In this document: positions 8,453-28,135 of the stretch, in pieces
Layout: every line of letters starts with the position of its first letter
Position numbering within the stretch: the first letter of the stretch is position 1
Source: Haloterrigena alkaliphila
GTDB lineage: Archaea; Halobacteriota; Halobacteria; Halobacteriales; Natrialbaceae
DNA: 64,000 nucleotides
Direction of reading: 5' to 3'
Assembly: GCF_017352155.2 (NCBI RefSeq)
Contig: NZ_CP071462.1
Location: 3,720,001 to 3,784,000, forward strand
Position numbers and translations under genes: made by a program
Notes under the pieces: generated by a model
What the model was told of the DNA's origin: nothing
The model's input: only the letters and a program-made list of their open reading frames with translations
Databases searched by the model: none

Positions 8453-9616
8453 TTATTCACGTGAGTCCGTCAGGAATCGACAGCCCGAACTACCCGGTCG
8501 ACCGACTGTCCGCAGTCGGCCCGCAATAACGTCGCCGCAGTCGGCCCGTAATAACGCCGCCGCAGTCGGCCGGGTGTGGCGGTCTACAGCAGGAAGCCGC
8601 CCACCATCGCCAGGATGAAGACGGCGGCGACGACGGCCAGCGCGTCGTACCGGTGGTCCCGCTCGTCGGTGACGTCCGGCGTGGCGAAGACGACGCCGAG
8701 CAGGCCGCCCACGGCGACCAGGAGCACCGCCACGGCGTAGATCGTGTACAGGAGGTCCGCCATACGGTAGCATACGAAGCGAATTCACGTAAACCCCCGG
8801 CGGAGCCGTCGGATTTCCGACCGACTCGAGGCTGGCCATCATCATGCTGACGATGCCGACGACGACCAGCACGCCCATCACGTTCGTCGTCCACCGCCAC
8901 GAGCGCTTGCGTCGGAGGCGTTCGATCCCGGTCGTCTCGTAGTCGTCGGAGTCGCCGTGGAAGCCCGGCGTCCGATCCTTCGGCAGAAACGCCTTCATTT
9001 CGACGGGGTAGAACGCCGGGTGGAAGCCGTGCTCGAAGGTGTGGAACATCACGCCCATCAGCATGATGACCCCGAGCAGGCCGTGGAAGGCGACGAAGGC
9101 CATCACGACCGTCTGGGAGTTATAGAAGTCGATCAGCCAGGTCTTGCGCCAGATGAGCAGCCCCGAAATCATCAGCAGGAGCAACTCGACGGTGAAGATC
9201 CAGATGACGCCCTTGCCGATGTAGGAGATCAGCGGCACCTCGTCGGCCTTGTAACCCCCGAACTGGCGGGCCGCGGGGTGGCGCTCGTCGGCCCGACCCA
9301 GCGCGAACTTGACGTCCTGCACGAACGCCTTTACGTCGGCGACGGCCGGCAAGACGCCGCGGAAGTTGGACCGGCTACTCGAGCGAAGCAGCATGTACGG
9401 TACCCAGAAGCCGGTCAGCGCGATCAGCGCGAAGCCGGCCAGTCGGTGGATCGAGAGCACGCCACGATTGCCGCCCATCAACTCGACGAGCCACCACAGC
9501 TCCGTGTTGAAGGCGATGGCGTACCCCGTAAAGAACAGGACGAACACCGTCAGCGCCAGCAGCGAGTGGAACATCGTGGTGGCCCGCGAGAACTTGCCGT
9601 GATCGAGGTTCGTCAC
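8453..9616 (-). CDS. Cytochrome b subunit of formate dehydrogenase (gamma-like), probable 3' frameshift
   Basis: The membrane subunit would carry haem b and pass electrons from the exported FDH catalytic dimer to quinone. The first 275 residues show four hydrophobic helices with candidate haem His residues: MFHSLLALTVFVLFFTGYAI, SIHRLAGFALI, a helix with LLLLMISGLLIW, and FHGLLGVIMLMGVMFHTFEHGFHP. After about residue 277 the sequence turns into arginine-rich low-complexity peptide that overlaps the 59-residue gene in another frame. A one-base shift in the C5 tract at 8794-8798 would give a TGA at 8785-8787, 21 bases before the next ATG. The true product is therefore likely about 277 residues. 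The start overlaps the upstream gene by 4 bases. Confidence 0.75.
   Translation of the reverse strand: MTNLDHGKFSRATTMFHSLLALTVFVLFFTGYAIAFNTELWWLVELMGGNRGVLSIHRLAGFALIALTGFWVPYMLLRSSSRSNFRGVLPAVADVKAFVQDVKFALGRADERHPAARQFGGYKADEVPLISYIGKGVIWIFTVELLLLMISGLLIWRKTWLIDFYNSQTVVMAFVAFHGLLGVIMLMGVMFHTFEHGFHPAFYPVEMKAFLPKDRTPGFHGDSDDYETTGIERLRRKRSWRWTTNVMGVLVVVGIVSMMMASLESVGNPTAPPGVYVNSLRMLPYGGPPVHDLRRGGAPGRRGRPARRRLRHAGRHRRAGPPVRRAGRRRRRLHPGDGGRLPAVDRHTRPTAAALLRADCGDVIAGRLRTVGRPGSSGCRFLTDSRE
8510..8572. repeat. 25-bp direct tandem repeat (about 2.5 copies)
   Basis: Two almost identical 25-base units at 8510-8534 and 8535-8559 begin with CCGCAGTCGGCCCG and continue with an AATAACG core; a partial third copy follows from 8560. 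They lie just downstream of the small membrane protein gene that ends the FDH operon. The space 8165-8452 before them holds no recognisable gene. Confidence 0.6.
8584..8763 (-). CDS. Small two-helix membrane protein at the end of the FDH operon
   Basis: A 59-residue ORF starts with ATG at 8763 (MADLLYTIYAVAVLLVAVGG) and ends with TAG at 8584. It has two hydrophobic helices of about 20 residues (7-27 and 40-58) separated by a charged loop TPDVTDERDHRYD. It overlaps, in a different frame on the same strand, the low-quality tail of the cytochrome b ORF. Its clean helix-loop-helix composition suggests this frame, not the overlapping one, is the real coding frame. A possible subunit of the FDH membrane part; no family is recognised. 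Confidence 0.6.
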   Translation of the reverse strand: MADLLYTIYAVAVLLVAVGGLLGVVFATPDVTDERDHRYDALAVVAAVFILAMVGGFLL

Positions 9617-10302
9617 GGGCGATCACCGCCGTCGGCGGCAGTTGTATCGTCGGTCGTCTCGCGACTCGAGTCTCCGTCACCAGTCGATTCGGGTGCGCCA
9701 CCATCGGTCGCCGCGGCGCTCTCCGGCGCTCGAGTCGAACCCGCGGGCGGCCGCATTCGCGCTCCCAGTCGCCGGAACGCCGCCCAGTGGATGAACACCA
9801 TCAGGAGGATGAAGATCCCCATGACGACGTCCGCGAAGTGGACGATCGCGATCGCGGCCTCGAGGATCGGCCGTGTGTTGCCGACGAGCCAGTCGGCGCC
9901 GACGCCGCCGCCGTCGACGGTCGGCCGAACCCGCAGGACGTTCTCGAAGAAGGGGGCGCGTCCCGTGACGAGCGCGACGGCGCCGACCGCCAGGGCGAGG
10001 CCGAACAGCGCGCTGAGCCAGAAGGCGATGCGGTCCGAACGGCCGCCGCTCCCGTCGTCGTCGCCGTCGCCGTGACCGCCGTCACTGGTCCCCCCGCTGG
10101 CGGCCCGTCCGGAGGCGGATCCCCTCAGTCGTTCGTCGGACGATACCCCGGCCCGTGCGTCGCGGCTCCGGGCGGCGTCGCGTTCGGTTCGGTCGACCGC
10201 GTCGGTCGTCCGCTCGCGGTCCCGCGCGGCCCGGACGTCGTCGTCCTCGTGGTCGAGGGCGTGCTCGTAGCCGTCGCCGTCGGATGGTCGGTCGTCGCTC
10301 AT
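9613..10302 (-). CDS. FDH-operon membrane protein with two helices
   Basis: No known family is recognised. The first 80 residues are hydrophilic, with many Asp, Arg and Gly. Two hydrophobic segments follow, IAFWLSALFGLALAVGAVALV and IAIVHFADVVMGIFILLMVFI, with a loop of about 40 residues that would face one side of the membrane, then an acidic Ala/Thr-rich tail. The ATG at 10302 overlaps the stop of the FeS subunit gene, and its own stop overlaps the cytochrome b start, so it is translated within the FDH operon. It probably anchors or stabilises the complex. The ORF remains open upstream into the neighbouring gene, which is not expected to be coding. Confidence 0.7.
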   Translation of the reverse strand: MSDDRPSDGDGYEHALDHEDDDVRAARDRERTTDAVDRTERDAARSRDARAGVSSDERLRGSASGRAASGGTSDGGHGDGDDDGSGGRSDRIAFWLSALFGLALAVGAVALVTGRAPFFENVLRVRPTVDGGGVGADWLVGNTRPILEAAIAIVHFADVVMGIFILLMVFIHWAAFRRLGARMRPPAGSTRAPESAAATDGGAPESTGDGDSSRETTDDTTAADGGDRP

Positions 10303-10979
10303 GATTCCTCGAAGAATTGGGCGTCCTCGGCCCCGAAGATGATCTTCATGGCCTCCTGGTTGAAGAACGGCTGGCTGCCGCGTCGCTCGAGTTCGTCGGC
10401 GATCTCGCCGGCGCCGCCGACGAGGATGGCGTCGGTCGCGCACTCCTCGGCGCAGGCCGGACCCTTCTGGACCTCCTGGCGCTCGCGACAGCCGGTGCAC
10501 TTGTCCATGATGCCTCCGGTACCGACGATCCGGGCCGCGCCGTCGTCGCTGTCCGGGAACTGCGGCGCGCCGAACGGACAGCCAGACAGGCAGTACTGAC
10601 AGCCGACACAGAGGTCGTCGTGGACCGTCACGAAGCCGTCGTCCTCCTTCTGGAGGGCGTTCGTCGGACAGACCGAGACGCAGGGCGCGTTCTCGCAGTG
10701 GTAACACTGCATCGGCAGGCTGGTCTCGCCGGGGTTCTCGCCCGCGGCCAGTCGCTCGGTCTTGTCGGCGTTCTCGCCTTGCGGACCGGCGACGCCCTCG
10801 GCCATGGTCGTGATGTCGATGCGCTGGTTGTCGATCTCCCGGTCCCAGGTGCGTTTACAGGCGACGACGCAGCCGCCGCAGTCGATACAGGCCTCGACGT
10901 CGGGGAAGATTCGCATCCCCTCGCCGGTGCTCATGACGCCCTCGCCCATCACCTGGCCGGACGGTCCTTCCTGTGTCAT
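10299..10979 (-). CDS. Formate dehydrogenase iron-sulfur subunit (beta, four 4Fe-4S)
   Basis: A 226-residue ferredoxin-like electron transfer subunit. Four cysteine groups are visible: CIDCGGCVVACKR (C31, C34, C37, C41), CYHCENAPCVSVCP (from C92), CVGCQYCLSGCP and CTGCRERQEVQKGPACAEEC. This is the arrangement of FdhB/NrfC/DmsB-type subunits that carry electrons from the molybdopterin subunit to the membrane cytochrome. It has no signal of its own, so it would be exported with the Tat-bearing catalytic subunit. It overlaps both neighbours by 4 bases (ATGA). Confidence 0.9.
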   Translation of the reverse strand: MTQEGPSGQVMGEGVMSTGEGMRIFPDVEACIDCGGCVVACKRTWDREIDNQRIDITTMAEGVAGPQGENADKTERLAAGENPGETSLPMQCYHCENAPCVSVCPTNALQKEDDGFVTVHDDLCVGCQYCLSGCPFGAPQFPDSDDGAARIVGTGGIMDKCTGCRERQEVQKGPACAEECATDAILVGGAGEIADELERRGSQPFFNQEAMKIIFGAEDAQFFEES

Positions 10980-13900
10980 AGTATCTCACCGCCTTCTTCC
11001 ATGTCCCACTCGCGGACGTCGTAGCGCTTCTGTCGGCCGAGACCGTTCTCTTCCTGGGGGTAGTCGATGAACTCCATGTCGAGGTCGTCGACGACCTGCT
11101 GGGTCGCCTTCTGGACGTGGACGACGCCCGACTTCGTCTCCTGCATCTGGGTCTCGGCGTCGAACCCGCTGGGCGTGATGATGTTCGCGCTCTCGCCGAT
11201 CGCCAGCGGCTCCGTTCCCTCCGGCCAGCTCTCGGCCTGGTTCTGGCCGTGGAAGACTCCGCCCCAGTGGTAAGGGAGGAAGACCTCCTCGTCGTTGACG
11301 CGGTTGGTCACGTTGGCCTTCACGAGGATCGATCCCTTGTCGGCGGAGGTGACGACGACGTGGTCCTCGCCGCCGACGACGTCGAGTTCCTCGGCCAGAC
11401 TCGGGCTGATCTCCGCGTACATGTGGGGCTGGCGGTCGGCGGTGTACTTGTTGTTCCGCGTCTCGGCGCCGCCGCCCTGGTGTTCCACCTGTCGACCGGA
11501 GGTCATGATGACGGTCCGGCCGCTCTCGGCGTCGCTGCCCAGTTCCGTGTGGACCGCCTCGGTCGCCTGCTGCTGGACGCTGGCGTTGTTCTGGTCGAGT
11601 CGCCAGAAGTTGGTCTGCTCGCCGTTGGCCGGCCACTCCTCGACCAGATCCGGTCGGGGGCTCTCGACGGGCTCTCGGTGAACCGGCACCGTGTCGATGA
11701 AGTTCCAGACGACCCCCCGCGCCTTGCCGCGCCCCGTCGGCGGATCCGGCTGTTCGGAGTCGTACTCCTCGAACTCCGCGGGGTCGACGTCCACGTCGTC
11801 GTACTGCTCGTCGACCGCCTGCGCCGCCTCGTACACCGACACGTCCTCGTCGAGGGCGGCCCGAACTGGCAGCGTCTGGCTCGAGGCCTCCGCGGGGTCG
11901 TCGGGCAGGATGGTCGCGTAGGCGGGATACGACGGAACGCCCTCGATCTCCCCGTCGTCGTACCACGGCGCCTCGAACGACTCGGCGATCAGGTCCAGCC
12001 CGTCCGCCCCCTGCTGGTCGACGGTCTCCTGCAGGGGGTACTCCTTATCGAGGTCCATCTCCGACCACTCCTCGGGCGTCGGAGCCTGCTGTCCCCAGTT
12101 CACGCGGAAGTCGTGGCCCCCGTCGCGGGGGTCGGACTCCTGTGTCCAGATGATCGGCGAGCCGGGGTGATCGTCGCCCCAGTAGGGCCAGGGGAGCGAC
12201 CAGTAGTCGCCGTCGACGGGCGTCCCGGTGTTCTCCGCGCGCAGGTCCTCGGTGCTGAACGCCCAGTCGTACTCGACGTGCTGCTGGAGTTTCTCGGGGG
12301 ATTGCTGGTAGCCGATCGAGCGCACGCCGAGGTTGATCTCTCGGAGCGTCTCCTCGTATGAGCTTCGGCCGTTGTGTTGCTCCGGTCCGCTTCCCCAGTC
12401 GAAGTGCTCGCCGAAGCCCATGTACTGGGCCAGTTCCTGCATGATCTGGAGGTCCGGCTTGGAGTTGTGGGCCGGCGTCGCGGCGGCCTCGCTCCACTGG
12501 ACCGACCGGTGCGAATTCGTGACCGACCGCACGTGCTCGTACTGGCTCGAGGCCGGCAGCAGGAGGACGTCCGCGTCGTCGGGCAGCGTCCCGGCGACCG
12601 CGGGGAAGACGTCGACGACGACCAGCAGGTCCAGCGCCTCCATCGCCCGCTTCATCTTGTCCATCTCGCTGATGGAGTTGGCCGAGTGGCCCCAGAAGAA
12701 GGCCATCTTCAGCGGGTTCGGCTGGTAGAGGTTCGAGTCGAGCAGTCGCTCCTCCTGCCCCAGTGCGGCCTCGTACCAGCGGGCGACGGTCAGCCCGCGC
12801 TGGAACATCATCGACTGAGGATCCGCGTCCTCGATCGGGGCGTCCTCCTGGAGGCCCTCGTCCTCGCTGCCTTCGCTATCACTATCGCCGCCGCCACCCC
12901 CTTCGCCGTCCGACGATTCTCCTTCGTCCTCCGACTCGGATTCTCCTTCCTCGACCGAGGCGGGAACGTCGAGGCCCGCCCACATCTCGTTGGGCATCCG
13001 CTCGAAGTTTCGGTAGAGGTCTTCGAAGGAGATGCTCCCGCTGGTCCAGGGACTCCGGGTCCAAACTTCCGACCAGTGTTCCCACGAGCCGGGCGCGTCG
13101 ACGCCGTAGTAGCCCGGCAGGATGCTCGCGTCGACGCCGAGATCCGTCGCGCCCTGCACGTTGGCGTGACCGCGCATGACCTGCAGGCCGCCGCCGGATC
13201 GGGCCGCGCTCCCGGTCGCGAGGCTGAACAGCGCGTACGCGCGGATGTTCTGCGTCCCGTTGTTGTGCTGGGTGCCGCCCATCGCCCACTCGACCTGGAT
13301 CTGGGGCGCGTTCTCGACGATCATATCGCCGATCTCCTCGAGGTCTCCCTGATCGATCCAGGTGATGTCGGCGACGGTCTCGAGGTCGTACTGGTCGAGT
13401 TCGGTCTCGACGTCGGGCCACCCCATCACGCGGTCCTCGAGGAACTCCTCGGCGAGCCCGTCCTGCTCTCGGACGTAGTTGAGCAGGCCGAAGATCAGCG
13501 CGACGTCCGTCCCCGGGCGCAACCGATAGAAGTAGTCGGCGTGGGCCGACGTTTTCGTGTACCTGGGGTCGATGGAGACGATCGTGCCGCCTCGGGCCTG
13601 CCCCTCGAGGATGTGTTGCATCGCGATCGGGTGGGACTCGGCGGGGTTCTGCCCGAGGATGATCAACAGGTCGAAGTTGCGGTAGTCGTTGATCGTGTTC
13701 GTCATCGCGCCGAACCCCCAGGTGTTGGCCAGTCCCGTGACGGTCGGCGAGTGGCAGATCCGCGCCTGGTGGTCGACGTTGTTCGTCCCCATGAACGCCG
13801 CGAGCTTCCGGATGGCGTAGGCCGCCTCGTTCGAGTGGTGAGCGCTGCCGAGCAGCATCACGCTCTCGCGACTGTACTCCTCGACGGTCTCCTGCCACGT

Positions 13901-14305
13901 CTCGGCGATCTCCCGATAGGCCTCGTCCCAGGTGACTCGGCGCCACTCGCCGTCTTCCTTCCGCATCGGGTGTTTCAGCCGCTTGGGCGAGTGCTCGGTC
14001 TCGAGGATGCCCGCCCCCTTCGAGCAAAGCGCGCCGTTGTTGATCGGGTTCTCGAACCACGGCTCCTGGGCGACGAACGAGTTGCCGTCCTTGACCGCCT
14101 TGAACCCGCAGCCGACGGCACAGTAGTTACAGATCACCTTCGCGGTGTCCTCCCCCTCGGGGACGCCGTCGTCCTGATCCTCCTGGGTGCCGAGGACGTG
14201 GCCCGTCACGCCGCCCCCGAGAAAGATTCCGCCGGCGAGCGCGCTCGCCTTCACGAACGAGCGCCGGTCGAGATCGATCGTAACCGGTTCGTCCGCCGCG
14301 CTCAT
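10976..14305 (-). CDS. Formate dehydrogenase catalytic subunit, Tat-exported molybdopterin enzyme
   Basis: This 1109-residue protein of the DMSO-reductase family oxidises formate to CO2. Residues 14-19 (RRSFVK) with the following hydrophobic stretch form a Tat signal. A 4Fe-4S cluster is bound by C59, C62, C66 and C94. Cys184 in QARICHSPTV occupies the place of the selenocysteine of FdnG-like enzymes, followed by TGLANTWGFGAMTN. The C-terminal cofactor domain ends with YHWGG and related motifs. Around residues 450-495 there is a Ser/Glu/Asp/Gly-rich insert, probably a surface loop of halophilic type. It heads a tightly overlapping operon with FeS, anchor and cytochrome b genes. Other substrates of the family cannot be fully excluded, but the ARICHSPTV context favours formate. 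Confidence 0.87.
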   Translation of the reverse strand: MSAADEPVTIDLDRRSFVKASALAGGIFLGGGVTGHVLGTQEDQDDGVPEGEDTAKVICNYCAVGCGFKAVKDGNSFVAQEPWFENPINNGALCSKGAGILETEHSPKRLKHPMRKEDGEWRRVTWDEAYREIAETWQETVEEYSRESVMLLGSAHHSNEAAYAIRKLAAFMGTNNVDHQARICHSPTVTGLANTWGFGAMTNTINDYRNFDLLIILGQNPAESHPIAMQHILEGQARGGTIVSIDPRYTKTSAHADYFYRLRPGTDVALIFGLLNYVREQDGLAEEFLEDRVMGWPDVETELDQYDLETVADITWIDQGDLEEIGDMIVENAPQIQVEWAMGGTQHNNGTQNIRAYALFSLATGSAARSGGGLQVMRGHANVQGATDLGVDASILPGYYGVDAPGSWEHWSEVWTRSPWTSGSISFEDLYRNFERMPNEMWAGLDVPASVEEGESESEDEGESSDGEGGGGGDSDSEGSEDEGLQEDAPIEDADPQSMMFQRGLTVARWYEAALGQEERLLDSNLYQPNPLKMAFFWGHSANSISEMDKMKRAMEALDLLVVVDVFPAVAGTLPDDADVLLLPASSQYEHVRSVTNSHRSVQWSEAAATPAHNSKPDLQIMQELAQYMGFGEHFDWGSGPEQHNGRSSYEETLREINLGVRSIGYQQSPEKLQQHVEYDWAFSTEDLRAENTGTPVDGDYWSLPWPYWGDDHPGSPIIWTQESDPRDGGHDFRVNWGQQAPTPEEWSEMDLDKEYPLQETVDQQGADGLDLIAESFEAPWYDDGEIEGVPSYPAYATILPDDPAEASSQTLPVRAALDEDVSVYEAAQAVDEQYDDVDVDPAEFEEYDSEQPDPPTGRGKARGVVWNFIDTVPVHREPVESPRPDLVEEWPANGEQTNFWRLDQNNASVQQQATEAVHTELGSDAESGRTVIMTSGRQVEHQGGGAETRNNKYTADRQPHMYAEISPSLAEELDVVGGEDHVVVTSADKGSILVKANVTNRVNDEEVFLPYHWGGVFHGQNQAESWPEGTEPLAIGESANIITPSGFDAETQMQETKSGVVHVQKATQQVVDDLDMEFIDYPQEENGLGRQKRYDVREWDMEEGGEIL

Positions 14306-14564: not shown

Positions 14565-16703
14565 ATGAGAGTCGGGAGTTTCGTCTGTTCCTGCGCCGAC
14601 ACGTGCGAGGTCGACCTCGAGGGGGCTCGGGAGGGGATCGAGGGCGTCGACGTCGCGGCGAGTTCGCGGCTGCTCTGCGAGGACGGCCTGCCGGCGATGG
14701 AGCACGTGATCGAGGAGTACGACCTCGACGAGTTGATCGTCACCTGTCCCGAGTCGCGGGTCCAGCGAAAACTCGAGCGCGTCGCCGAGCAGCAGGGGGT
14801 CCACCCGGACGCGGTCTCGTTCGTCGACCAGCGCGAGGGCGCGGGCTGGGTCCACGACGAGGCCGGCGCGACGGCCAAGACCGCCCGCATGGTCAACGCC
14901 CGGCAGGCCGGCCTCGAGGCCGAGTCACCCTCGAGGACGCTCACGCGCGAAGCCGGCGAGCGCGTCGCTGTCGTCGCCGACCCCGACACCGCCGCGGCGC
15001 TGGCCGACGACGCCGACGTCACCCTGATCGCCGACGGGGACGAATACGTCGACAGCGCGGCGGATCTCGACCACGTGACGATCGAGCGCGGACGCGTCGC
15101 CGGCGTCGACGGCCGGTTCGGGGAGTTCGAGGTCCGCCTCGAGTCCCGCGTCACCGAAGAGTGCATCTCCTGCATGAAATGCGTCCACGAAGGCCCGGAC
15201 GAGCAGGTCACGCGCTACCCGGTCGATATCGACCCCGACGCTCCCGACGGTGCGTGGACGGACGTCTGTCCCACCGACGCCATCGAGATGGACGGCGTCG
15301 AACGGGAACTCGAGTTCGATCAGATCGTCTACCCCGCGGCGACCCGGCGAACGCGGGGCGGTCGCGTCGGCTTCTACACCGCGCCGATCGACGCGGCGAC
15401 GATTTCGGCCGTCCGGAAACATCTCGGCGGGATCGAGAAGCCCGCCCACCTCGACCTCGAGATGGAGGTCTGCGCGGCCGGCGACTCGAGCCAGCCGGGC
15501 TGCAACGAGTGCGTCGAGGTCTGTCCCCACGACGCGGTCGAGCGCTCGCGGATCGACGCGGTCGCGTTCCACGAGGAAGCCTGTCAGAACTGCGGCGCCT
15601 GCACCAGCGCCTGTCCGACGGGCGCGACGATGCTGCGCGAGCCGTCGAACGAGCGCATCGCCCGCGAGGTCGAGGCGCTCCTTCGGCCGACCGGCGAGGA
15701 GGGCGGCTGGCTCCTGAACCGGTCGGGGTCGGACGTCGACGCCCCCATCGTCGCCTTCGTCTGCTCGGAGGAGGCCGACGACGCGCTGGCGGAGTACGGC
15801 CGACTGGCCGCCGCGGGCAAGGCCGACGTCGAGTACCCGCCGATCCTCCCCGTGCGCGTGAACTGTACCGACACCGTGGGCGAGGCCCACGGGATGCACG
15901 CGCTGGCCTCCGGCGCCGACGGCGTCGCGATCGTCGGCTGCGGCGGCGACTGCCTGCACTCGGGGCCGGAACCGAAAGCCGACCTCGTCGACCGACTCAA
16001 CCGGGCCAGCCGCGACCTCGAGCTCGGCGAGCGGTTCGCGTTCTTCGCGCCCGACGCCGACGAACCGGGCGCGTTCGTGGAAGCGATCTCGACGTTCGCG
16101 GTCGAACTCGAGCCCTCGCCGGTTCCGGCGGGCGAGCACGAGGCCACCGGCGAAACCGATGCTGACCGCGAGAACCCGGCCTTCGACAGCCACGGCTGGA
16201 CGCTCGAGAGCGTCCGCGCGATCCTCGAGCACGTCGACCCCGAGCGCGAGGTCATCAGGGGGCTGACGGACTTCGGTCGGATGGAAGTGGGGGACGGCTG
16301 TACGCTGACGCCCACGTGCTCCACCCTCTGTCCGACCGACGCGATCCGGCGCGACGAGGAGACGGCGACGCTCGAGTTCAACCACGAGCGCTGCGTCAAC
16401 TGCGGGACCTGCGAGGAGGGCTGCATCGAGGACGTCATCACGATGCGCGAGGGACTCGACCGCTCGCTGCTGCCCGAGAACCGCGGCGATGCGGACGACC
16501 CCGCCTGGATCGCGGTCCACGACGGCGAGATGCGCGAGTGCAACAACTGCGGGAAACCCTTCACGAGCGAGGGCTCCGCGCGGAAGATCCAGTCGGCGGT
16601 CGGCGACGTCGTTGCGGACCTCGCGCCGGGCGCGCGCGGAAGCGTCTTCGACTACTGCGGCGACTGCCGCGCACAACTGCTCTACGACCGTGGAAACGGA
16701 TGA
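14565..16703 (+). CDS. Multi-ferredoxin HdrA-like/MvhD fusion iron-sulfur protein with zinc ribbon
   Basis: A cytoplasmic electron-transfer protein of 712 residues. Residues 1-120 resemble the HdrA N-terminal domain (GSFVCSCADTCEVD, LIVTCPESRVQRKL, GWVHDEAGATAKTARM) but the FAD-binding domain that normally follows is missing. Ferredoxin motifs come next: ECISCMKC with VCPTDAI (about 198-245), CNECVEVCP (about 312) and CQNCGACTSACP (about 342). Residues about 393-470 match the MvhD/FrhD delta family (VAFVCSEEADDA, LPVRVNCTDTVG, GVAIVGCGGDCLH). A further ferredoxin lies at about 583-620 and a CNNC/YCGDC zinc ribbon at the end. It is divergent from the FDH operon and followed by a TorD chaperone, so it may link FDH or another redox enzyme to a soluble pool. 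The partner is unknown. Confidence 0.8.
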   Translation: MRVGSFVCSCADTCEVDLEGAREGIEGVDVAASSRLLCEDGLPAMEHVIEEYDLDELIVTCPESRVQRKLERVAEQQGVHPDAVSFVDQREGAGWVHDEAGATAKTARMVNARQAGLEAESPSRTLTREAGERVAVVADPDTAAALADDADVTLIADGDEYVDSAADLDHVTIERGRVAGVDGRFGEFEVRLESRVTEECISCMKCVHEGPDEQVTRYPVDIDPDAPDGAWTDVCPTDAIEMDGVERELEFDQIVYPAATRRTRGGRVGFYTAPIDAATISAVRKHLGGIEKPAHLDLEMEVCAAGDSSQPGCNECVEVCPHDAVERSRIDAVAFHEEACQNCGACTSACPTGATMLREPSNERIAREVEALLRPTGEEGGWLLNRSGSDVDAPIVAFVCSEEADDALAEYGRLAAAGKADVEYPPILPVRVNCTDTVGEAHGMHALASGADGVAIVGCGGDCLHSGPEPKADLVDRLNRASRDLELGERFAFFAPDADEPGAFVEAISTFAVELEPSPVPAGEHEATGETDADRENPAFDSHGWTLESVRAILEHVDPEREVIRGLTDFGRMEVGDGCTLTPTCSTLCPTDAIRRDEETATLEFNHERCVNCGTCEEGCIEDVITMREGLDRSLLPENRGDADDPAWIAVHDGEMRECNNCGKPFTSEGSARKIQSAVGDVVADLAPGARGSVFDYCGDCRAQLLYDRGNG

Positions 16704-16728: not shown

Positions 16729-17361
16729 ATGAGTCTGAACCAACAGGCGCTATACGAAGCGCGACTCGAGCTCGTGAACTTCCTGATCGACGCGTTCGCG
16801 GACGTGCCGAGCGAGGCGTTCGTCGAGACGATTTGCTCCGACGAGGTGACGCTCCCGGAGGGGAGCGTCGGCGACGACCTCGATCGGGGGTTTTCCGACC
16901 TCGAGGCGTTCATCGAGGCCAATAGGGGCCGCGGCACGGCTCCCGTTCAGGACGACCTCGAGGGCGAGTTCACCCGGCTGTTCGTCGGGCCGCGACCGTC
17001 GATCCTCCCTCACGAGACCTACTACCGCGAGGGCACGGACTTCCGCGGAGCGGGACTGGCGACGGTCGAGGCCAGTTACGGCGCGGCCGGCTGGTCCCCG
17101 CCCGAGGACTACCCGGAGGAGAACGACTACATCGCGGTCGAACTCGCCTTCCTCCGCTCCCTGATCCGCCAGCAGCGGGCCGGCCACGAGGAGGCCGTCG
17201 GCTACCAGCGCGTCTTTCACGAGGAACACCTCTCGGCGTGGATTCCGGCCTTCGCGGCCGACGTCCGCGAGACGACCGACGAGCGGTTCTACGAGGCCGT
17301 CGCCTCGATCCTCGAGGGCTACGTCGCCTTCGAGGAGGAGATCGCGATGGGGATGGCCTGA
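16729..17361 (+). CDS. TorD/NarJ-family molybdoenzyme chaperone
   Basis: Chaperones of this all-helical family hold the apo-catalytic subunit and its Tat signal until the molybdopterin cofactor is inserted. The 210 residues are helix-rich with the family landmarks LEGEFTRLFVGP, a PHETYYREG segment and a DYIAVELAFLRSLI helix. The ATG at 16729 starts 26 bases after the FeS fusion gene, so the two are cotranscribed. The most likely client is the Tat-exported formate dehydrogenase subunit encoded on the other strand nearby; this is inference from context. Confidence 0.83.
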   Translation: MSLNQQALYEARLELVNFLIDAFADVPSEAFVETICSDEVTLPEGSVGDDLDRGFSDLEAFIEANRGRGTAPVQDDLEGEFTRLFVGPRPSILPHETYYREGTDFRGAGLATVEASYGAAGWSPPEDYPEENDYIAVELAFLRSLIRQQRAGHEEAVGYQRVFHEEHLSAWIPAFAADVRETTDERFYEAVASILEGYVAFEEEIAMGMA

Positions 17362-18475: not shown

Positions 18476-18835
18476 TCACCAGGGCCGCGGATCGTCCGGG
18501 TCCGCGCCCCCCGTCTCCTCGCCTTCGAGAAACACCCGCGCGAACAGGTCGACGTGCATCGCGAGGACGTCCGCGGGCTCGAGCCCGTACGCGTCGGCCT
18601 GCCGGTCGAGAAACGCCTCGAGGTCGTCGCTCGGCTGGTGGTGGATCTCGCCGTCCTCGACCGCGAACTCGACCTCGGTCGCGTCGGCGACGAGGTGTTC
18701 GATCTCGAGCAAGGCCTGTTCGGCCTTGCTCTCGAGGGCGTCGTTTTCGTCCATCAGTCGGCTGTCGCCCCACTCGATCGCAGCCTCGCGGAACCGGTCG
18801 CTGACGGGGACGGTGAGTCGGTCGTCACCGCTCAT
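18476..18835 (-). CDS. Hypothetical haloarchaeal cytosolic protein (119 aa)
   Basis: The sequence is acidic and mostly helical: RFREAAIEWGDSRLMDENDALESKAEQALLEIEHLVADA, given in parts, followed by a short strand region VEFAVEDGEIHHQP and a helix DDLEAFLDRQADAYGL-EPADVLAMHVDLFARVFL. No membrane segment and no catalytic motif is visible. The stop of the upstream two-helix membrane protein lies one base from its start, so both are in one transcript. Confidence 0.55.
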   Translation of the reverse strand: MSGDDRLTVPVSDRFREAAIEWGDSRLMDENDALESKAEQALLEIEHLVADATEVEFAVEDGEIHHQPSDDLEAFLDRQADAYGLEPADVLAMHVDLFARVFLEGEETGGADPDDPRPW

Positions 18836-19168: not shown

Positions 19169-19954
19169 CTACTCCGACGCGGCGTCGTCCTCGAGTGGCC
19201 ACTCCGCCTTCGCAGCGGCGGTCTCGAGCGGGACGAACTCCCAGTCGGCCGCCTCGGCGATCGGTTCGTCCTCGCCCTCGAGACCGACGACGACCATCCG
19301 CTCGGCGTAAAACATCGAGTTCTGATCGATCTCGGCGAGCCGTTCGCCGGGTCCGGTTCCGGTCCCGTTGAAGAAGTCGACGTCGATCCCCCGATCCCGC
19401 TGGAACTTCTGGACGACGTAGGCGGGCACGTCGCCGACGATGCCGACCCAGTCGCTCCACTCGGACGCGCTCGCGAAAACCGCCGCCGGGTGCTCGAGGC
19501 GGTGCAGGGCGCCGTAGGTGATCGCCATCGTCATCTCGTCCGCGCCACCGCCGTGAGGACCAGACGCCGGTTCGGCACCGTCCGCCGCGGTCGACCCGCC
19601 CGACGGTTTCGTTCCCATCGGTCGCATCGATTCGGTATCGTTTCCGTTTCCGCTCGCATCCGCCGTCGAATTCGCCGTGCCGCTCGAGGCGTCAATCCCC
19701 GACCCGTTCCCTTCAGTCGGAATCCCGACGGGAGTGCTCTCGCCGGTCGTCGGGACGTGGGGCGCCGGAGCGCGGTCGGGACCGTCCTCGATCGTATCGG
19801 CGGCGCCGCCCGTCGCCGGCGACGGCGAATCGAACTCGTCCGCCGGCTCGGCCGACTCGTCGTCGCGCCACAGCCAGTCGCCGCGGTTTCCCGCCTCCTC
19901 CGTCTCCGCGTCCGCGCCGGTCTCGAGGTCGTCCAGATCGATCCGATCAGTCAT
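19169..19954 (-). CDS. Haloarchaeal conserved protein downstream of AOR homologue
   Basis: The first 130 residues are low-complexity, rich in Asp, Glu, Gly, Ser and Thr, probably disordered. The conserved part is residues about 140-250: MTMAITYGALHRLEHPAAVF, SEWSDWVGIVGDVPAYVVQKF, and FFNGTGTGPGERLAEIDQ. This looks like a compact alpha/beta domain of the type found in uncharacterised haloarchaeal DUF proteins. Its start overlaps the end of the AOR gene by 8 bases, so it is translated with it and may work on or with that protein. Confidence 0.6.
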   Translation of the reverse strand: MTDRIDLDDLETGADAETEEAGNRGDWLWRDDESAEPADEFDSPSPATGGAADTIEDGPDRAPAPHVPTTGESTPVGIPTEGNGSGIDASSGTANSTADASGNGNDTESMRPMGTKPSGGSTAADGAEPASGPHGGGADEMTMAITYGALHRLEHPAAVFASASEWSDWVGIVGDVPAYVVQKFQRDRGIDVDFFNGTGTGPGERLAEIDQNSMFYAERMVVVGLEGEDEPIAEAADWEFVPLETAAAKAEWPLEDDAASE

Positions 19955-21806
19955 CGTCGCTCACCTCCGGGGACGGTTCGGACTCGGCTCTCGCCCCAGT
20001 ACCACCGGTCTCCGGGATCGGCGTGGAGTCGTCGACTACCTCGCGGAGATCGAGTCGTCGAACCGTCTCCAGGGTCGGCCGCCCCTCCTCGTTCCAGCCA
20101 CGGTAGCGGTAATAGCGCTCGAGCAGGGCGTCGAACCGCTCGGGATCGAGGCCGTCGCCGTTCGCGTTGCCACCGTCGCCGGCCGCACCGCTCCCACCGT
20201 CCGCGTCGCCACGGGACTCGAGCAGGGCGTCGGGCAGCGCGTCGTCCTCGCGGGAAAAGCCCTCTCGGACGTTGAACAGCCGCACGAGCGTCCAGATCCG
20301 CTCGCCGACGGTCGCGAGGTCGGTGCGGTCGACCTCGCGGCCGACCGCCGCGAGCCACTCGGCGCCGAGGTCATGGGAGAGGGCGTCCTCGAGGAAGTCG
20401 TCGGCGATCAGGCTCCAGAGGACCGCTCGGCGGTTCTGCTCGCCGGCCACGGCGGCGACGCGAGCGCGGTCGTCGGGCCACGCCCGGCCGACCGCTTCGG
20501 ACTCGACGGGTCTGGCCCGTCGGTGACAGGCGCCCCGATCGCTGGTCGCGTAGGCCAGCGCCATCGTCTCCGCGCCGCGGGGATCGTACGACGAGTAGTC
20601 CATCCCCTTGACCGTCGGGACGAGGTCCTCGCCGCCGAATTCGGCGGCCGCGGCGTCGATCCCGTCGGCCAGCGCGTCGCCCAGCGGAGTCTTTCTGGAC
20701 GCGATTTCGCGGATCACGTCGTTCGCGGCGTCTTCGTCGCCGAAGGAGAGGTCGCGCTCGAGCAGGTCCGCCTGACTGGCGCGGACGGCCCAGGCGACCG
20801 CGTTCCCCGCGCTGATGACGTCGACCCCGAGGCGATCGCAGACCGCGCCCAGCGTCGCGACGGCGTCGAAATCGTCGATCGCGAGCCCGGCCCCGAGGAC
20901 GATCGGCGTGGCCCCCCGCGGGACGCTCTCGCCCGCCCCGGTCTCGACCCGAAACCCGCCAGGGACCGCGTCGTCGGGACGTTCTCTTCCGCTGGCGCGC
21001 TCGCGGACCGCCTCGATGCCGAGGTCGTCGGCGCCGTCGAATCGGCTATGTTGCCAGCCCCGCGTCGGAAGCACGCCGACCGCGTTCGCGACGTCGATCG
21101 TCTCGAGCGTCCCGCTGGCCGACTGCCACCGCCCGTCCTCGCTCTCGGCGAAGCGGCGTTCGTAGCGCTCCCGGAGATCCTCGAGTCCCGTCGGCGCCTC
21201 GCCGCGCGCGACGACGGCCTTCAGGTTCTTCGAGCCCATCACGGCGCCGGCGCCGCCCCGCCCGGCGTGGTGGTCCCCGCCGTCGGCGGCGATGGTGGCG
21301 TACTGGACCTCGTGCTCCCCGGCGGGGCCGATGCAAGCGACGCCGGCGTCGGGAAAGGCCGCGCAGGTCTCCGCGGCGTCGGTACCGCGGAGGTCGTCTG
21401 CGGGTTCGATCGTCGCCTCGCCGTCCGCGACCGAGAGGACGACGGGTTCGTCGGCTTGGCCCGTGACGAGAACGGCGAGGTGGTCCTCGAGCGATCCCGC
21501 CAGCCGACCGGCGAACTCGCCGCCGCTGTAGGAGTCGAGAAAGGTCCCCGTCAGCGGCGACTTCGTGATCGCCGCGTACCGGGGCTCGCCCGGGGTCAGC
21601 CCCGACACCGGACCGACGACGAACGCCAGCACGTTCTCGGGCGAGAGCGGGTCGGTTCCCGGCTCGAGGTCCGCGTAGAGGTACCGCGCGCCGAGTCCCT
21701 TCCCCCCGATGTAGCGCTCGAGCCACGTCTCCGGGACCGGCTCGCTGGAGACGGTCCGGTCGGAGAGGTCGACCCTGAGAACGCGGCTCGGATACTCCCG
21801 TGCCAT
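19947..21806 (-). CDS. Aldehyde ferredoxin oxidoreductase homologue lacking the 4Fe-4S ligands
   Basis: The 619-residue protein has the AOR N-terminal and middle domains: VLRVDLSDRTVSSEPVPETW, YIGGKGLGARYLY, AFVVGPVSGLTPGEPRYAAITKSPLTG in parts, and GAGAVMGSKNLKAV. AORs oxidise aldehydes with a tungsten bis-pterin and a nearby 4Fe-4S cluster bound by CxxCxxxC plus a distal Cys. Here only four Cys residues exist in the whole protein (148, 158, one in LGAVCDRLG and one in RGACHRRA) and the region where the CxxCxxxC should stand reads RPDDAVPGGF. Either the enzyme works without the cluster or it is a divergent paralogue. ATG at 21806 is the canonical start; the frame stays open upstream into promoter DNA. 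Confidence 0.8.
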   Translation of the reverse strand: MAREYPSRVLRVDLSDRTVSSEPVPETWLERYIGGKGLGARYLYADLEPGTDPLSPENVLAFVVGPVSGLTPGEPRYAAITKSPLTGTFLDSYSGGEFAGRLAGSLEDHLAVLVTGQADEPVVLSVADGEATIEPADDLRGTDAAETCAAFPDAGVACIGPAGEHEVQYATIAADGGDHHAGRGGAGAVMGSKNLKAVVARGEAPTGLEDLRERYERRFAESEDGRWQSASGTLETIDVANAVGVLPTRGWQHSRFDGADDLGIEAVRERASGRERPDDAVPGGFRVETGAGESVPRGATPIVLGAGLAIDDFDAVATLGAVCDRLGVDVISAGNAVAWAVRASQADLLERDLSFGDEDAANDVIREIASRKTPLGDALADGIDAAAAEFGGEDLVPTVKGMDYSSYDPRGAETMALAYATSDRGACHRRARPVESEAVGRAWPDDRARVAAVAGEQNRRAVLWSLIADDFLEDALSHDLGAEWLAAVGREVDRTDLATVGERIWTLVRLFNVREGFSREDDALPDALLESRGDADGGSGAAGDGGNANGDGLDPERFDALLERYYRYRGWNEEGRPTLETVRRLDLREVVDDSTPIPETGGTGARAESEPSPEVSDDD

Positions 21807-25794: not shown

Positions 25795-26133
25795 TCACTC
25801 CTCGTTGTCGTCTCGGTCCTCGTCGTCCTCCTGCGCCAACGCACCGTCGTGACTGGTCCCGACCGTGATCCGCTCGAGTTCGTCGGGCGGTTCGCTCCGA
25901 TCCCGCTGGTGCTGGCGACGGCTCAGCGCCGATCGTCGGCGTTCGACATCCCACTCCTCGAAGAGGCCGTACTCGGTCATCGTCTCCATCCCGGCGATGG
26001 CCGCGGTGAGTTTGATCCCGACCAGCGGGATGTCCGCGACCGAGACGATCACGTCCGCCCGGAGGACGGCGCCGTCCCTGAGCAGGACGTCGAGCACGTC
26101 GACGAGCGTCTCCTCGTCCTTTCGCGGTCTCAT
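25795..26133 (-). CDS. gvpM: Gas vesicle protein GvpM
   Basis: GvpM belongs to the GvpA/J/M family of small hydrophobic vesicle proteins. The first 65 residues show the family core: ETLVDVLDVLLRDGAVLRAD, VIVSVADIPLVGIKLTAAIAG, METMTEYGLFEEWD. A hydrophilic tail of 45 residues follows. It is the last gene of the leftward gvp operon, its ATG overlapping the gvpL stop by 4 bases. GvpM is needed in small amount for vesicle nucleation in Halobacterium. Confidence 0.88.
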   Translation of the reverse strand: MRPRKDEETLVDVLDVLLRDGAVLRADVIVSVADIPLVGIKLTAAIAGMETMTEYGLFEEWDVERRRSALSRRQHQRDRSEPPDELERITVGTSHDGALAQEDDEDRDDNEE

Positions 26134-27044
26134 GCGTTGGGTGGGGTGTCGGTCGATTCGTCGCCGCCCAGTTCCGGCGCGAACGTGTACGGCGGCCAGG
26201 GGCCCGTGAACCTGACCTCGAAGCCGTCGTTCGCGGCCACGTCGTCGAGGATCGACCCGATCGCCCCCTCGTCGTCCTCGTGGGCGAGCAGCGTCAGCCG
26301 ACACAGGGTTTCGCCGTCGTCTTCGTCCGCTCCCTCGCCGGCGACCTCGTCGGAGAGCGACGCGGACGGCGACCGCTCGAGGGTGTGAACCTCGCGCGCG
26401 ACGTCCGCGAGTCGTTCCTGCAGATCGGCGGTGATCGACTCGCGGCGGGACGCACGCAGTTCTTTCAGGCGCTGGTCGAACTTCTTCTCGAGCAGGAACG
26501 CCGCCCCCTCGCTCGAGTCGTCGATCTGTTGGGCGAGATCCTGCAATCGCTCGTCCTGTTCGATCAGCGCGTCGTCGTCGATCGGATCGATCTCGACGAC
26601 CTCGACGCGGTACTCCCAGTGGCCCGCCAGCCCCGAGAGCGCGCGCTCGAGCGTGTCGCGCTCCTCGCGGAGCCACTCGCGGACGCGCGCGTCGTCGCCC
26701 CGGAGGATCGTGTCGAACTGGAACGGGATCGGCGTGCCGAAGGCCTCGCCGGCCTCGTCGACGACCGTCTGGTGGCGGACCAGCCAACGACGAACCTGCG
26801 CGAGGTCCGCCGAGTCGTAGATCCCGTCGGTTTCGTGGACGACCGCGCCGATGCCGTCGTCGACGACGATCGAAATCGGCTCGCCGTCGACGCCGGTCGT
26901 CTCGAGGGTCGCACCCTCCTCGGCCCGGACGATACAGTAGAGGTACCGCCCGTCGTCGAAGTCGGGCAGCGCCTCGTCGACGGCGTCCTCGACGTCGAGG
27001 TCCTCGAGGGTTTCGACCCGTTCACCCGCGCCGTCGGAACTCAC
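26130..27044 (-). CDS. gvpL: Gas vesicle protein GvpL
   Basis: A GvpF/GvpL family protein of 304 residues. Family landmarks are [10 protein letters not shown] near residue 32, a GIGAVVHE segment, [33 protein letters not shown], and the C-terminal [17 protein letters not shown] long acidic helical insert lies in the middle. In Halobacterium GvpL contacts many other accessory Gvp proteins. It overlaps gvpK and gvpM by 4 bases each. Confidence 0.92.
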
Positions 27045-27385
27045 TCGTCCTCACCTCCGAAGACGGAGTAGCCGGGTTTGTTGATGGCGGTGGGTTCGCC
27101 GTGGAGCTGTTCGATCGCGTCGTTGACCAGCCCGTCGAGTTCGCCCCGGAGGTCGTCGACGCCCTCCTCGATCCCCTCGTCTTCCTTGAGCGCCTCGATC
27201 TCCTCCTCGATCGTCGCGAGCTGGCGGCCGAGCCGATCGATCTCCTCGTCCGCGAGGTTCCCCGACTCCATGCGACGGACCGCCTCGCGCTCGAGGGCGT
27301 CCATCAGGATCTCCACGACGGTGACGACGAGGGTGACTAACCCCTGTCGCGCGTCTTCGCCGTCGCCGACGTCGATCTGGGTCAC
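27041..27385 (-). CDS. gvpK: Gas vesicle protein GvpK
   Basis: The 114-residue protein carries the GvpK hallmark [31 protein letters not shown], here in parts, followed by [18 protein letters not shown]. The C-terminus is acidic with NKPGYSVFG at the end. Start overlaps gvpJ stop (ATGA) and stop overlaps gvpL start, as in other haloarchaeal clusters. Confidence 0.92.
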
Positions 27386-27963
27386 GACTCGCCCTCCGTG
27401 TTCGTCGCCTCTGCTTTCTCGGCGTCGTCGTCAGCGTCGCCGTCGTCCGCCTCGTCACCCCCTTCGTCGGCGGATTCCGCCTCCTCTTTTTCACCTGTGT
27501 CGTCGCTGAGCAGGTCGAAGCCGCCGCTCGTGGGCCGGTCCGGATCCGGCCGCGCCCCGAGGTGGGACGCGCCGCGGTCGGGCATCTCGTCGCTCCCCTC
27601 GTCGCTCGAGTCTCCGTCGCCATCTCCCTCGCTCCCGTCGGCGTCTTCGTACTGCTCGTCGGGCGTAACGTTGACGCCGCTCGTGGGATCGATCACCGGG
27701 TTCGGCCGGTCGGTCTCGGCGATCGACGGGTCGTCGACCGCCGCCGCGACGCGTCGCATGTCGGTCCCCTCGGGGAATTCGAGGCCGTACTTCGCCGCGG
27801 TCTCGAAGGAGGCGATGGCGGCCCGGACCTGCACGCCGAGCAGTTGGGTGTCGCCGATCGAGACGGCGATGTCGGCGTTGATGACGATCCCCTTGTCGAG
27901 CAGCATCTCGACGACCTCGGCGAGGTCGGCCTTCTGGCGGCTCGGCTGGAAGTCATCGACCAC
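27382..27963 (-). CDS. gvpJ: Gas vesicle protein GvpJ
   Basis: The GvpA-like core is [40 protein letters not shown] and [18 protein letters not shown] within residues about 10-70, followed by an unusually long acidic tail of some 120 residues. No ATG is available near the expected start; GTG at 27963 gives [16 protein letters not shown], aligning best with known GvpJ N-termini, while GTGs at 27972 and 27990 are alternatives. It follows a 60-residue ORF that overlaps it by about 10 bases. Confidence 0.85.
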
Positions 27964-28135
27964 GGCGCTCACCTCCGTCGTCGGCCGCACCCGTCGCGAC
28001 CTCGTCCGTCCGCTTCGAACCGCTCCCGTCGGTCGCCGCCGACGCGGTCACAGCCGTCGGCGTGGACACGGTCGCCAGCCCGACGGCCGTCAGTACCTCG
28101 AGTCGCCGTCGAATCGAATTCGGTAACTCAATCAT
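27953..28135 (-). CDS. Candidate 60-residue ORF between gvpI and gvpJ
   Basis: The ORF starts with ATG at 28135, overlapping the end of the gvpI-position gene by 8 bases, and ends at 27953, inside the start of gvpJ. The product begins MIELPNSIRRRLEVLTAVGLA and continues with an Ala/Thr/Ser-rich, Arg-containing tail. Its tight fit between two coupled genes suggests it may be translated to keep coupling across the gap. No homologue is recognised. Confidence 0.35.
   Translation of the reverse strand: MIELPNSIRRRLEVLTAVGLATVSTPTAVTASAATDGSGSKRTDEVATGAADDGGERRGR

Follow-up and report, generated by a model that had tools for sequence, protein, structure and literature searches.

A haloarchaeal clade of the aldehyde ferredoxin oxidoreductase family lacking cluster ligands and the active-site glutamate is associated with formate dehydrogenase genes

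The closest described relatives of the protein analyzed here are those of the aldehyde ferredoxin oxidoreductase (AOR)/WOR family, represented by P. furiosus AOR (1aor; Pf, whose residue numbering we follow), FOR (1b25), the A. aromaticum AOR (8c0z) and Haloferax WOR83 (9q1t). In the excerpts available from the cited works, the residues surrounding the tungstopterin and the [4Fe-4S] cluster are reported to vary very little in this family (PMC13328260), and the proposed AOR mechanisms use Glu313 (PMC12096430). The excerpted text also indicates that the branches of YdhV and of BamB (class II benzoyl-CoA reductase) are likewise devoid of second-shell AOR residues, but carry an extra Cys metal ligand (PMC12096430) that is missing from the clade described below. 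With respect to formate dehydrogenase (FDH), partial texts state that the sulfido ligand of the E. coli enzyme requires FdhD and that FdhD-type chaperones bind bis-MGD (PMC6239281), and that a tungsten FDH from Methylorubrum requires MoeA1, MobB and FdhD (PMC13197769).

The window, i.e., the whole stretch of 64,000 nt from Haloterrigena alkaliphila that was analyzed, contains a gene for a 619-aa protein of the AOR family in the vicinity of FDH genes:

8453–9616, minus strand: putative FDH cytochrome b subunit, by likeness on reading of the ORF
10299–10979, minus strand: FdhB-type multi-cluster ferredoxin subunit
10976–14305, minus strand: FDH alpha subunit, with a twin-arginine signal and the motif RICHS (Cys metal ligand next to a His)
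14565–16703, plus strand: 712-aa iron-sulfur protein with FlpD and ferredoxin domains
16732–17361, plus strand: TorD/NarJ-type chaperone (PF02613), from Pfam
18476–18835, minus strand: 119-aa protein of unknown family, with no Pfam match
19169–19954, minus strand: DUF7124 protein (PF23439), with an 8-base overlap with the AOR gene
19947–21806, minus strand: cluster-less AOR-family protein, 619 aa, ATG start at 21806
20397–20417, minus strand: residues 464–470, WSLIADD replacing DSAGLCL, with Asp469 at the position of Cys494 (fourth cluster ligand)
20523–20528, minus strand: Cys427-His428 (Pf Cys447-His448 by alignment), invariant within the clade
20910–20912, minus strand: Ala299 replacing the catalytic Glu313, by alignment
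20952–20987, minus strand: residues 274–285, RERPDDAVPGGF, replacing the CxxCxxxC cluster loop (Pf Cys288/291/295) in alignments

The top PDB match of the FDH alpha subunit was FdhA from 9vap (1e-200).

The homology of the 619-aa protein to the AOR/WOR family extends over its full length, with Pfam domains AFOR_N (6e-65) and AFOR_C (1e-88) spanning it and being the only matches at E ≤ 0.001, at which PF02634 (FdhD) gave none; among solved AORs, the best match was 9mqx (1e-83), and 1aor matched at 2.5e-71. The initial annotation had remarked that the protein contains only four Cys, with no CxxCxxxC motif, and that RPDDAVPGGF stands in its place; the alignment, in which the P. furiosus cluster loop CYACPIGC pairs with this very stretch, confirms it and extends it to the whole clade. 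A search of the ORF translation for the shorter motif CxxC was also negative, while three further AORs from the same genome (L002, L003, L004) all have CxxCxxxC.

We compared individual residues in 35 cluster-less rows, seven rows from a cysteine-bearing sister clade and 13 other AORs. Among the cluster-less rows, the position of Cys288 is occupied by Asp (30), Glu (3) or Gly (2), that of Cys291 is deleted in 33, that of Cys295 is Gly in 34 and Asp in one, and that of Cys494 is Asp in all 35. None of the four [4Fe-4S] ligands is thus retained in any row, and the initial proposal of a protein without iron-sulfur ligands, for which an alignment with AORs and paralogs had been suggested as a check, holds for the fourth ligand as well. 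The catalytic Glu313 is also absent from all 35 rows, replaced by Ala (21), Ser (8) or Gly (6), and it is preceded by two further invariant changes, Glu311 to Arg and Tyr312 to Gly. Conversely, as in the AOR/WOR family, Thr243, Asp343, His448 and the AGRGG loop are kept in 35/35 rows and Arg76 in 34/35, and position 427 is Tyr in 33 rows and Phe in two, which supports the earlier impression that the pterin-binding parts are still recognizable. Roles assigned here to single Pf residues beyond those given in PMC12096430 and PMC13328260 are presumed ones. One of them is that of Asp489, which we take to be a pterin contact in PfAOR; this position is Trp in the cluster-less protein and Tyr or Phe in the sister clade, which also lacks the Asp. 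In a larger alignment of 64 rows, 83 columns are invariant. Cys323 and Cys427, half of the Cys complement of the protein, do not vary in it and align with the non-ligand Pf positions Cys337 and Cys447.

The loss of the cluster would make electron transfer by the AOR route impossible, and the loss of Glu313 makes the AOR reaction unlikely. By descent, the 619-aa protein belongs to the AOR family; judged from these two features, it appears not to be a functional tungsten AOR, in agreement with the suggestion in the initial annotation that redox activity may have been lost. It could be argued that a cluster or metal is held at the old site by non-Cys ligands (Asp278, Asp279, Asp469 and Asp470), preserving electron transfer, given that Asp replaced two of the four Cys and that Asp470 does not vary in the clade alignment. 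We deem this very improbable: the second ligand position is deleted in nearly every row and the third is Gly, the invariant Arg at position 311 is compatible with a salt bridge that occupies the cavity, and Glu313 was lost too. To our knowledge, there is no precedent for a [4Fe-4S] cluster without any Cys.

The AlphaFold2 model of the 619-aa protein (64 sequences; pLDDT 88.5, pTM 0.91) predicts an AOR fold, with Z scores of 37–48 to seven entries of the family in VIA-align. The highest were to 1b25 (Z 48.0; 2.2 Å over 579 residues) and 1aor_A (Z 46.6; rmsd 2.1 Å over 569 residues). The predicted fold is also shared with BamB (4z3w, Z 37.4), which has an Fe-S cluster, whereas the cluster-less clade has no ligands for one.

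A match at E ≤ 1e-60 was found in 169 of 292 Halobacteria genomes; ten of these hold only cysteine-bearing AORs and were excluded, leaving 159. Sequences of the ortholog were read in 69 of the 159, none containing CxxCxxxC and 66 displaying W.L..DD where the region of the fourth ligand would be, and the remaining 90 genomes were placed in the clade on identity, either at least 55% or comparable values over split hits. Scanning GTDB genomes yielded 80 named loci with the same pattern (CxxCxxxC in 0/80, W.L..DD in 77/80), all from haloarchaea according to their record titles except for one MAG labeled only as Euryarchaeota; Haloferax gibbonsii and Haloferax massiliensis are among the carriers of the gene. 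The persistence in 159/292 haloarchaea of a clade lacking both the cluster and the active-site Glu suggests that this fold also performs a different type of task. The dN/dS values were 0.15–0.28 for the cluster-less AOR (ten pairs) and 0.05–0.15 for cysteine-bearing AORs (three pairs); the cluster-less AOR is under purifying selection, with no decay.

In a quick tree with 60 rows, the cluster-less sequences form one branch (SH-aLRT 100) adjoining a cysteine-bearing haloarchaeal clade (99), with a single change of state; by this topology, the cluster-less clade is of single origin from a cysteine-bearing ancestor. The sister clade (L036, L037, L039–L042, L051, L082) is rare, appearing in 7/194 genomes, and is 40–46% identical to the cluster-less clade. 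Both share Tyr93, His182-His183, an aromatic residue at 489 and the motif DRG(A/G)CHxRA, but the sister retains Cys494 and CxxCxxxC in 8/8 sequences and Glu313 in the 7/7 that were aligned. A comparison of 80 cluster-less with eight sister rows revealed 81 shared invariant positions and 22 sites fixed differently, 12 of which are concentrated in residues 275–323, comprising the cluster loop and the Glu313 stretch.

The distribution of the gene is closely associated with that of FDH, which was called from a strong TIGR01591 match or from a match to the window type at E ≤ 1e-100 and was present in 215/292 Halobacteria genomes. Thirteen genomes with weaker TIGR01591 matches were set aside, three of them being regained through the window type; 211 genomes exceeded the curated cut-off in the tool and 208 were used, a difference that could only enlarge the number of FDH-positive genomes without the gene. 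FDH was found in all 159 genomes with the cluster-less AOR vs. 56 of the 133 without it (Fisher, 1.9e-34), and YqeC in 159/159 vs. 42/133 (3e-43); no genome has the cluster-less AOR and lacks either of them. Likewise, the 77 genomes with window-type FDH all contain the gene, and none of the 20 genera without FDH does. The association persisted in permutations within genera, with 71 joint occurrences for FDH vs. 56.8 expected (13 informative genera, 118 genomes) and 89 vs. 72.3 for YqeC (15 genera, 138 genomes), both with p of about 5e-5, the lowest value that the test can return. A functionless relic AOR paralog carried along near FDH genes would fit the missing catalytic and cluster residues, but is hardly credible in view of the dN/dS values, of the 83 invariant columns and of the strict co-occurrence with FDH and YqeC.

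YqeC itself tracks FDH in Halobacteria (198/215 genomes with FDH vs. 3/77 of the others), although it is named as a selenium-cofactor protein of molybdenum hydroxylases. It follows FDH more closely than the cluster-less AOR does and may be a more general factor. The available excerpts report that the deletion of yqeC in C. difficile did not appreciably alter growth (PMC11448449) and that, among archaea, the selenium-cofactor trait occurs in Halobacteriales only (PMC5322559).

FdhD (PF02634, E ≤ 1e-10) was found in 0/292 Halobacteria genomes, whereas in the same search control genomes matched in 8 of 14 cases, including three archaea; therefore, the maturation of haloarchaeal FDH must follow another route or rely on an FdhD so divergent that it escapes detection. 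This raises the question of how these enzymes are matured, and an FdhD-free route would be of interest to makers of FDH for CO2 reduction. The 56 FDH-positive genomes with neither the cluster-less AOR nor a detected FdhD imply that some haloarchaeal FDHs can dispense with the gene. For this reason, we rejected as too strong the idea that FDH maturation needs the cluster-less AOR. In the open-license literature in PMC, we found no report of a cluster-less AOR clade or of the absence of FdhD from haloarchaea, which may be mentioned elsewhere.

The gene is also physically linked to genes for FDH and for cofactor synthesis. For this analysis, 31 further cluster-less neighborhoods were picked over families, before looking at any neighbors beyond those in the window. 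Clustering of the ORFs from these and the window (32 neighborhoods) retrieved the FDH alpha subunit in 21, YqeC in 14 and MobA in 10. Linkage was then counted with tblastn, using identical queries for every set of loci and a distance of about 8 kb: FDH, YqeC or MobA were near 70 of the 80 named loci (FDH in 49, YqeC in 39 and MobA in 21) and 23 of the 31 others. By contrast, they were near only two of 27 control loci with cysteine-bearing AORs, both being weak FDH-like hits (264 and 299 bits), and absent from all six sister-clade neighborhoods. The 49 neighboring FDHs are of four architectures, being closest to the window type (21), a 716-aa type (13), an NAD type with a NuoF-like partner (13) or a 980-aa type (2).

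These data bear on the possibility that the protein belongs to the FDH complex as a structural or regulatory subunit, or senses pterin, formate or metal, with no role in cofactor assembly. This would agree with the loss of the catalytic parts from a fold that is kept under purifying selection, with FDH genes near 49/80 named loci and with the two copies present in Haladaptatus salinisoli and Haloterrigena salina, each adjoining its own FDH, a pattern that also speaks for a cofactor-handling protein; of the two copies in Halorussus salinisoli, one does so. Nevertheless, we consider it unlikely, because a single subunit fitting four FDH architectures would be unusual, because YqeC and MobA are frequent neighbors, and because FDH and the gene often lie on opposite strands or have other genes between them. 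The links to MobA and YqeC, together with the variety of FDH architectures, favor cofactor assembly over a fixed FDH subunit.

Other neighbors might point to a protein that is still an enzyme, supplying formate to FDH by W/Mo-pterin-dependent oxidation of one-carbon aldehydes or by non-redox chemistry. A formate-tetrahydrofolate ligase gene lies near 6/80 named and 4/31 other loci, and a dimethylglycine-dehydrogenase-like gene near three (L065, L096, L097); His448, Thr243 and, mostly, Tyr427 are kept. Additionally, two FDH operons (L087, L088), with the order FdhA-FdhB-cytochrome b-TorD-(Fe-S protein), end in a cysteine-bearing AOR (CLGCPLEC or CRGCQLEC) from a group that keeps Glu313 (its copies L054 and L055 are among the 13 other AORs, all with Glu313). 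The presence of an intact AOR in these operons implies that a link to FDH does not by itself mean that AOR chemistry was lost. Yet one-carbon neighbors are few, those related to MobA and YqeC would be left unexplained, and the four cluster ligands are gone together with Glu313, on which the proposed mechanisms depend in the excerpts cited above (PMC12096430); we thus judge a surviving enzyme quite improbable. Since Glu313 was lost too, an AOR using another electron acceptor is relegated to a rival, and the same loss favors cofactor assembly over aldehyde oxidation.

Our preferred explanation, which we put forward tentatively and with somewhat less than even confidence, is that an AOR-fold protein became an FDH-dedicated cofactor-handling protein that is no longer an aldehyde oxidoreductase. 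A metal-pterin would probably be bound in the old AOR pocket, as judged from the conservation of Arg76, the HHAGRGG loop, Thr243, Asp343 and His428. The protein would hold, check or modify the W/Mo-pterin on its way to apo-FDH, in partnership with MobA (guanylation) and YqeC, plus TorD for exported FDH, and it may cover part of the role played elsewhere by FdhD. A more specific version, possible although doubtful, is that haloarchaea, lacking FdhD, recruited this protein as an FDH-dedicated carrier or insertase of the W/Mo-bis-pterin cofactor, acting with YqeC and MobA. If true, the fold of a redox enzyme would have turned into a cofactor chaperone, and the invariant Cys427, adjoining His428, could participate in sulfuration. 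We propose by analogy a likeness to FdhD/FdsC, in being dedicated to FDH, serving different FDHs and binding the cofactor, properties taken from the excerpted text of PMC6239281. Unlike FdhD, the cluster-less AOR has neither a PF02634 match nor CxxC, although some FdhD also lack CxxC according to the same excerpts (PMC6239281). Counting against a cofactor-handling protein are the 56 genomes with FDH and without the gene, the cysteine-bearing AOR in two FDH operons, the closer tracking of FDH by YqeC, the loss of Asp489 and the absence of CxxC.

The 8-base overlap with an uncharacterized protein, described in the initial annotation, is real and involves the DUF7124 gene (19954..19169). A DUF7124 gene was near 30 of the 80 named loci, following the AOR gene immediately and on the same strand in 29; the family is present in 292/292 Halobacteria genomes with one to five copies each, so it is not specific to the AOR/FDH system. 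For the AlphaFold2 model of the window protein (pLDDT 88.7), Foldseek gave nothing at E ≤ 0.001, and Z scores were only middling (9.8 to 1te2_A, a putative phosphatase), which suggests at most a HAD/Rossmann-like fold. We discarded it as an electron acceptor, as it has no Cys and no Foldseek match at that threshold, and as the family is universal in the Halobacteria searched yet near only 30 of the 80 named loci; the earlier idea of another acceptor hence finds no support, the loss of Glu313 and the link to FDH and cofactor genes being additions of this work.

Further small genes accompany the cluster-less AOR. The 119-aa protein, conserved in 9/32 neighborhoods of the first set, travels with the DUF7124/FDH arrangement and was found in 23/80 named loci. 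In three loci (L071, L094, L099), the cluster-less AOR is followed by a MoaD/ThiS-type gene and by two small unknown genes, of 91 and 122 aa in L071. Elsewhere in the window, positions 26130–27990 of the minus strand contain gas vesicle genes of the GvpL/F, GvpK and GvpA/J types.
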